From Bacteroidales bacterium (GTDB lineage: Bacteria > Bacteroidota > Bacteroidia > Bacteroidales > ML635J-15), in the NCBI GenBank assembly GCA_027858835.1, contig JAQIBY010000136.1, positions 1-38,389 on the forward strand: 38,389 nucleotides of DNA, in the 5' to 3' direction. The position numbers were made by a program, and so were the translations under genes. Below the pieces are notes generated by a model, which was given only the letters and a program-made list of their open reading frames with translations, was not told the DNA's origin and did not search any database. Positions 759 to 1,513 of the stretch are shown piece by piece (positions within the stretch are counted from its first letter, which is position 1; each line of letters opens with the position of its first letter).

Positions 759-829
759 CGCCAACGGTTGGGCTAAAAAGCGTTGCTGTCCCGCAGGGCA
801 GCTATGATTTTTTAGCCATTGTTGGCGGG
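759..829 (-). repeat. attC-like cruciform repeat after the 212-residue gene
   Basis: The plus strand holds CGCCAAC (759-765) and GGCTAAAAA (771-779), matched in reverse complement by TTTTTAGCC (809-817) and GTTGGCG (821-827). A short inner hairpin lies at 785-802 (seven pairs with one G-U, loop CGCA). Two outer paired boxes separated by unpaired spacers of unequal length (5 versus 3 bases), around a variable hairpin, is the R''-L''-L'-R' layout of integron attC sites. The boxes keep the AAC/GTT core but deviate from the strict RYYYAAC/GTTRRRY consensus. It sits just past the stop codon of the neighbouring minus-strand gene, where a cassette attC belongs. It could instead be a family-specific interspersed repeat or a terminator-like structure. 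Confidence 0.55.
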
Positions 830-838
830 TCGTGTTTT

Positions 839-1477
839 TTATTTTTTCGTTTGTTTAGTCGACAAAGCGAGTTTCATCACTTTATCGTAAAATTCTTTAA
901 AGTCTTCTTCGTTATATTTTGTCCGCATAGCTTTTAGAACATCTTCTGCTCCAAGTCCACCCCATTCCCAAAGCATAGTATCAAAGTTGTATTTCAGCAT
1001 TTGGGTTTTGACTTCCTTTCTTATCGAATTCACAATCTCTTCTGTCAGTCCATATTCATTTAAAAGTCTGGTTAGTCTTTCATCTGTTTCTTTTGTGAAT
1101 TCGGTGTCCAAGAAAGGTTCTAAAATCCAACCCCAAATGTCTGGTCGCTTTACTATTTTTAAGTCGTTTCTTCGAGCAAATTCTTTCAATTCATCCCTTT
1201 TCTCGGAAGTCAGAAATATGAGTTCATCTTTTACCTTAATTGTCGGTGGATAAGATTCAATGTCAATTTCGTCAATTGTGTCGACTAATATTCTTGTCTG
1301 CCCGTAGGCGATAGAAGGTTGAAAGGGATAGTCGTCAATTTGAATATAATCTCTTTCAATTCTTAACTGTCCTGAAGAAACGAGCAAGTCATTAACTTCT
1401 TTCTTTGAAGTACTGAACATCGTCCAACTGCCAGTCGGTTTTTCAGACGTTCCAAATATTTTTTTAAAGAAGTTCAT
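839..1477 (-). CDS. Unrecognised 212-residue protein in cassette-like unit
   Basis: I do not recognise the family. The ATG at 1475-1477 (MNFFKKIFGTSEKP) is preferred over upstream start codons because the upstream extension runs through the repeat boundary at 1505-1513 and encodes implausible sequence. No signal peptide or membrane helix is visible. Residues 30-110 alternate short strands and end in a helix (ILVDTIDEIDIES, then KVKDELIFLTSEKRDELKEF), a pattern resembling bacterial PH-like/GRAM-like domains; that is inference. Residues 111-212 are mostly helical, charged and rich in Trp/Glu. The gene is bracketed by a 9-base inverted repeat (821-829 and 1505-1513), with the attC-like structure directly downstream, so it may be a mobile cassette cargo. 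Confidence 0.7.
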   Translation of the reverse strand: MNFFKKIFGTSEKPTGSWTMFSTSKKEVNDLLVSSGQLRIERDYIQIDDYPFQPSIAYGQTRILVDTIDEIDIESYPPTIKVKDELIFLTSEKRDELKEFARRNDLKIVKRPDIWGWILEPFLDTEFTKETDERLTRLLNEYGLTEEIVNSIRKEVKTQMLKYNFDTMLWEWGGLGAEDVLKAMRTKYNEEDFKEFYDKVMKLALSTKQTKK

Positions 1478-1504
1478 TTTATGTTCTGTCGTCTTTTTTG
1501 CATG

Positions 1505-1513
1505 CCCGCCAAC
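1505..1513 (-). repeat. Second copy of the cassette boundary motif
   Basis: CCCGCCAAC on the plus strand (GTTGGCGGG on the gene strand) is identical in inverted orientation to 821-829. On the gene strand GTTGGCG therefore occurs 30 bases before the 212-residue gene and again at the far edge of the downstream repeat (765 to 759). Two direct copies would be the expected boundaries of one inserted cassette. A full second attC-like fold was not found here; only AACTCGT (1511-1517) pairs with ACGAGTT (1608-1614). Confidence 0.4.

Follow-up and report, generated by a model that had tools for sequence, protein, structure and literature searches.

A hairpin-bounded gene in a Bacteroidales contig as a probable one-gene cassette of an integron-like system with IntB-type integrases

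A gene of 212 codons in the window (the whole 38,389-nt stretch of DNA analysed here, which is a whole contig of a Bacteroidales bacterium) is followed by a hairpin resembling the attC site of an integron cassette. This raises the question of whether the gene is a mobile cassette and, if so, which recombinase moves it. A sequence-only reading had proposed a one-gene cassette with a 3' attC in a Bacteroidota-specific variant, and comparative data support that proposal. As judged from sequence, the feature is very probably a cassette holding a single gene, within a Bacteroidota integron-like system served by a family of tyrosine recombinases, and we infer that it moves by recombination. The family is given here the working name IntB, for the relatives of an integrase on contig C116 of the source genome. 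The same reading had noted that no integrase was visible. This holds for the window, whose left edge is an assembly end; it does not hold for the genome, which has an integrase of the right family on C116.

The attC-like site of the window cassette was assigned to positions 757-829 on the minus strand by folding, covariation and a covariance model (R1). On the gene strand it consists of R'' CCCGCCAAC (829-821), the spacer AAT, L'' GGCTAAAAA (817-809), a loop, L' TTTTTAGCC (779-771), the spacer CAACC and R' GTTGGCG (765-759). On the plus strand, the order is CGCCAAC (759-765), GGTTG, GGCTAAAAA (771-779) and the loop, followed by TTTTTAGCC (809-817), ATT and GTTGGCG (821-827). The arms comprise 7 and 9 bp with spacers of 3 and 5 nt, and the crossover is expected at G^TT, between 765 and 764. 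Folding of the gene strand as single-stranded DNA gave -17.9 kcal/mol compared with a mean of -9.45 for 200 shuffles, none of which was as good (z = -3.7). The heptamer CGCCAAC alone occurs 5 times in the window, near the chance expectation of 2.4. The site scored 39.9 bits (E = 2.6e-8) against R1, the window copy being part of the training set of that model.

An exact search of public genomes for the frame of the site yielded two true relatives, Aquimarina sp. AU474 and Flagellimonas pacifica, in which the sites lie within arrays whose short genes share a strand, one site behind each gene. When 15 sites were aligned by their R and L stems, 43 double-change cells were observed compared with 18.8 in shuffled alignments, and 86% of the cells were paired compared with 28-34% after sliding. 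Pairing, folding and covariation together confirm the attC-shaped cruciform that had been proposed downstream of the gene. Some of the L arms in Aquimarina and Flagellimonas are nearly the same as that of the window, and others are GTATAACC or GTGTATA; since the L arms vary between sites, the structure has been kept while the sequence was changing. No Rfam family matched the site, and a similarity search of plasmid DNA with the site alone as a query gave no match. Two matches to the exact structural pattern in viral contigs were both chance matches within coding DNA. Strict attC patterns applied across the class mostly returned chance matches in coding DNA or proved overly restrictive (2 of 349 genomes). 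R1 works locally; the search filters lose sites with long loops, so genome counts obtained with R1 are lower bounds, and the integrase was therefore used to gauge prevalence.

The gene (842-1477 on the minus strand; ATG at 1477, stop codon at 841-839) encodes a protein of 212 amino acids, and 9 nt separate its stop codon from the site. The protein shows weak similarity to DUF7079 (E = 2.8e-5), under the family cut-off, and the window cassette matches no immunity family. The gene was present in 4 of 395 genomes of the class, and among near kin only in the source genome. It is hence not common to all relatives, an outcome that would have spoken against a cassette. The other three sampled genomes of the class hold distant homologues. 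Their searched flanks gave no boundary words around any of the three loci, and the homologues were rejected as cassettes elsewhere.

The recurrence of GTTGGCG upstream of the gene proved to be longer than had been noted: a 5' boundary word of 9 nt, GTTGGCGGG, lies at 1513-1505 on the minus strand and is the reverse complement of the cassette's own R''. The chance of this 9-mer in the 334 nt upstream is approximately 1e-4. The mobile unit would thus extend from 765 to 1512 on the minus strand, with 748 bp between two G^TT points. The R'' of an integron cassette and the first bases of that cassette derive from one circular attC; complementarity is therefore expected across the cassette and not within the site. 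In the window, the word matches over 9 nt across the cassette and over 7 nt inside the site. On the other side of the site, as had been read, lies a KilA-N gene (PF04383, E = 1.5e-22; 2-664 on the minus strand), which runs off the contig. It is possibly the next cassette, in which case it would begin with GTTGGCGTTC at 765-756 and have its own attC beyond the contig end.

The same signature was found in longer arrays. In an array on Flagellimonas contig C8, matches within the same cassette were 10, 9, 9, 10, 10 and 10 nt in 6 of 10 cassettes and two further cassettes were off by one base, whereas matches within the same site were 0-6 nt and the mean of other pairs was 3.5. Across 85 cassettes (median length 804 bp), the word matches were 9-11 nt, the median distance from the stop codon to R'' was 11 nt, and the commonest spacers were 3 nt combined with 5 to 7 nt. 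The longest ORF lay on the expected (integrase) strand in 69 of 78 cassettes. Because inverted pairs read alike both ways, chains of words are blind to strand, and the strand was taken from the integrase and the ORF direction. Copies of the frame follow gene ends and are not scattered without relation to genes. The boundary word (approximately 9-11 nt) is private to each cassette, as in GTTGGCGGG and GTTGTACACA, with only GTT and the L frame fixed. GTTGGCG/CGCCAAC as a boundary motif therefore stands as far as GTT and the L frame are concerned, and gives way otherwise to a cassette-private word of 9-10 nt. The proposed deviation of the R boxes from RYYYAAC/GTTRRRY also agrees with these data, GTT alone being fixed across cassettes. 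Other cassettes carry TIR, MazF/PemK, trypsin-like and RDD genes. The TIR-domain gene is a Flagellimonas cassette (L094 4300-5244), and the site behind it is cut to one half. In length, most attC-like sites belong to one of three classes, approximately 62-78, 135-140 and 199-206 nt, with a spacing of about 65 nt between the classes.

An attI-like platform that lies upstream of the cassette in the window was delimited at 1514-1751 on the minus strand by BLAST copies and their alignment. The platform is approximately 150-240 bp long and occurs in at least 10 dispersed copies in the source genome; the core common to all copies corresponds to approximately 1514-1667, and two copies are longer. BLAST detected further copies on contigs C28, C78, C109, C153 and C68 as well as in G649, a member of the same family, and the one congener sampled gave just a short platform match. 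The platform has inverted arms, AACTCGTTT[G/A]TA ... TATA[T/A]ACGAGTT, and TATAAACGAGTT occurs 19 times in the source genome compared with 2 occurrences of a reversed control. The aligned copies agree through ACGAG or ATGAG plus TT and diverge exactly at G^TT, which is the breakpoint expected for an integron crossover. The words that follow are GTTGGCGGGC in the window and GTTGTGGTGC, GTTGGCTGCA, GTTACCCATT, GTTAGGTTTC and others elsewhere. Cassettes with matching words were found behind the platforms on C28 (1191 bp, 9 nt), C78 (688 bp, 10 nt) and C153 (1109 bp, 10 nt). The window cassette is thus located at one of many dispersed platforms and is not a simple array remnant. In view of its inverted arms, the platform could be an unusual attC instead of an attI. 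Among the sampled genomes, no strain pair with gain or loss of the window cassette was found. Between the platform arms, at 1585-1660, there are near-direct repeats, AAATGCTTACA, TTGCTTACA and AAATGCTTA, which are possibly recombinase-binding repeats. The C78 cassette (L231 11420-12107) contains a small ORF and a MazF/PemK toxin gene and is likely a toxin-antitoxin cassette. The C153 cassette (L232 2587-3695) contains a nuclease-like gene, apparently broken by an in-frame stop or frameshift.

Contig C116 of the source genome encodes a tyrosine recombinase of 441 amino acids, with GATAAACGA^GTT located 85 nt downstream; the core there, ATAAACGAG^TT, is the same as that of the platform. No cassette end was found in the 602 nt searched after this attI-like core. 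Cassettes directly follow the relatives of this integrase in Flagellimonas (375 amino acids; L118/L149; GTTACAGGCA...TGCCTGTAAC) and in G470/G622 (367 amino acids; L146/L151; GTTGTACGCA...TGCGTACAAC), G470 and G622 being apparently the same genome and counted once. A profile built from these three integrases and applied at a threshold of E = 1e-60 was positive in 148 of 295 genomes sampled evenly across the class, and in 91 of 156 genera. This class is probably GTDB Bacteroidia, since G622 belongs to the class of the window and its apparent duplicate G470 to the Flagellimonas family.

The sequence-only reading had suggested looking for a tyrosine recombinase linked to these sites, and IntB is such a recombinase. 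In 17 of 29 distinct IntB loci with at least 1 kb of downstream sequence, a word pair starts within 165 nt past the stop codon, compared with 10% of control windows (p = 2e-10), a background that accounts for a few of the 17. The other 12 loci have no exact first-cassette word, and some deeper IntB lineages may behave differently. Units of 10 nt formed chains of at least three at 5 of 22 integrase loci, and in none of 17 control stretches or of the shuffles. At many IntB loci the attI region forms a near-perfect palindrome, after which come a few bases and then ^GTT, as in ACGTACCATGGTACGTTTAGCCAATT^GTT. In addition, breaks in the draft assemblies fall within 500 nt of IntB in 18 of 73 cases on the downstream side and in 1 of 76 on the upstream side (p = 1e-5), as expected because the array is variable and repetitive.

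The window feature might instead be a remnant of a canonical integron (CALIN), an ordinary attC cassette placed by a classical IntI from elsewhere. The two share the logic of the cassette, the G^TT core, AAC-AA beside R'' and the asymmetric spacers; a CALIN is defined by at least two clustered attC sites without an integrase, and the window contains one, ahead of the contig end. However, the R boxes are private over approximately 10 nt, unlike RYYYAAC/GTTRRRY, and the integron integrase model TIGR02249 gave no match above its cut-off in any of the 349 Flagellimonas-family genomes sampled, on which ground a canonical IntI was rejected as a partner. The single TIGR02249-like match, in G470 (= G622), turned out to be IntB. 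The associated integrase itself remains under the cut-off, at 212-228 bits compared with 265, and is without the IntI insertion: the IntB profile matched IntI4 in two pieces, with approximately 17 model positions facing approximately 60 IntI4 residues in the gap, and IntI1 has residues at the same gap that IntB is without. A canonical remnant is accordingly improbable. In NCBIfam, IntB falls, barely above the cut-off, into NF040815 (site-specific tyrosine recombinase/integron integrase).

It is slightly less probable still that XerC/XerD, rather than IntB, moves these cassettes. This idea draws on the cassette array of Aquimarina sp. AU474, which is without IntB; a search with PF00589 found two recombinases only in that genome, both XerC/D-like. 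The array nevertheless fits an integrase-less remnant, and in many genomes arrays start directly behind IntB. By sequence, the closest structures to IntB are XerA/XerC-like enzymes and IntI4; in a tree, the Xer genes cluster apart from IntB with full support, IntI1 being a long branch of unsure placement. That the hairpin is a mere transcription terminator or REP-like intergenic repeat is scarcely credible, for although it lies just past the stop codon and contains a terminator-like stem, its outer arm pairs with the far end of the gene's own unit, beyond local pairing, the upstream copies diverge at G^TT, and its geometry is conserved while its sequence varies; termination may be an added role.

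For a cassette served by IntB, the following mechanism can be proposed. IntB, as an IntI/Xer-type tyrosine recombinase, would recognise the folded gene-strand hairpin by binding to its stems, and the strand would be chosen by the unpaired spacers, which differ in length (3 versus 5-7 nt). IntB would then carry out strand exchange at G^TT, and cassettes would leave and enter as circles, which would make R'' and R' complementary by descent. In class 1 integrons, attI is the attachment site and Pc the promoter; the platform would likewise give an attachment site and perhaps a promoter. Hairpin folding, cutting of the gene strand by IntB, movement as circles and expression from the platform are all extrapolated from integron biology.

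The likeness to integrons covers several features: one-gene cassettes with the ORF and a 3' attC on the same strand; a palindromic 3' site composed of R and L arms, with unpaired spacers of unequal length; a G^TT junction, R'' being the complement of the first bases of the cassette it closes; an attI-like site beside a tyrosine recombinase, found in 17 of 29 loci; and a cargo of toxin-antitoxin and orphan genes. Unlike integrons, the IntB system has private words of approximately 10 nt in place of RYYYAAC/GTTRRRY boxes; IntB is without the IntI-specific insertion, carries an extension of at least approximately 90 residues at its N terminus and is co-oriented with the array; and in the source genome the attI-like platforms occur in many dispersed copies. 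Xer/pdif modules belong to the same recombinase superfamily, whereas the sites of the IntB system are long structured hairpins with cassette-private arms, and no 28-bp dif-like XerC/XerD site was incidentally encountered.

The 2019 Nature paper on recombinase-associated acquired interbacterial defence (rAID) arrays of Bacteroidales may have remarked on integron-like features. In a rAID array, a recombinase is accompanied by short genes of one orientation and by conserved motifs between the genes; the biogenesis of such arrays was called unresolved in a paper in which integrons go unmentioned (PMC12247911). They share with the IntB system the co-oriented short genes, the intergenic motifs (PMC12247911) and a recombinase of the same family: the Bacteroides ovatus rAID recombinase nests inside IntB with support of 99/95. 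On the B. ovatus plasmid NZ_CP081918 (L244 7080-13056), the 5' and 3' ends of 8 of 10 rAID genes bear an inverted word pair private to the gene, 8-10 nt long and starting at TT. The same cassette boundary rule applies there, with a core of ATT at the 5' end, unlike G^TT. The rAID cargo consists of T6SS immunity genes, whereas the gene of the window cassette is unrelated.

On Acinetobacter plasmids, tet(X3) and tet(X5) lie approximately 190 nt past a fragment of an IntB-type recombinase (L241 3632-3822, L242 5181-5371). They are preceded by GGCGTATAGCCACTT^GTTATGTGCC, in agreement with the attI pattern, and the attI-like palindrome ends in CCACTT^GTTATGTGCC; a closing word was sought at these loci and not found. 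This suggests, as a lead only, that both genes were captured from a Bacteroidota integron.

Taken together, it is reasonably likely that these features represent a second integron lineage of Bacteroidota, having IntB without the IntI-specific domain, private attC arms of approximately 10 nt, attI sites with a short, perfect palindrome as their basis, dispersed platforms in some genomes and rAID arrays as specialised members, with tet(X3)/tet(X5) possibly exported from the first-cassette position. What sets this lineage apart from IntI integrons is the architecture of its integrase and the arms of its attC sites. Surveys have reported next to no integrons in Bacteroidota: IntegronFinder 2.0 names Salinibacter and the Chlorobi/Ignavibacteria group alone as having complete ones (PMC9024848), and integron surveys appear to miss the IntB-type system. 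If the proposal is true, cassette capture would be a routine source of gene novelty in Bacteroidota, which are among the largest phyla of soil, sea and gut; it would provide a mechanism for rAID immunity arrays and a source route for tet(X), and the need for an IntI-specific domain in hairpin recombination would be put in question.

Other mobile elements were also encountered at these loci. The Flagellimonas array at L149 10714-12449 contains an inserted IS3-type transposase, and on a Chryseobacterium plasmid (L243 12269-16051) an IS110 element and a group II intron are present downstream of the integrase.
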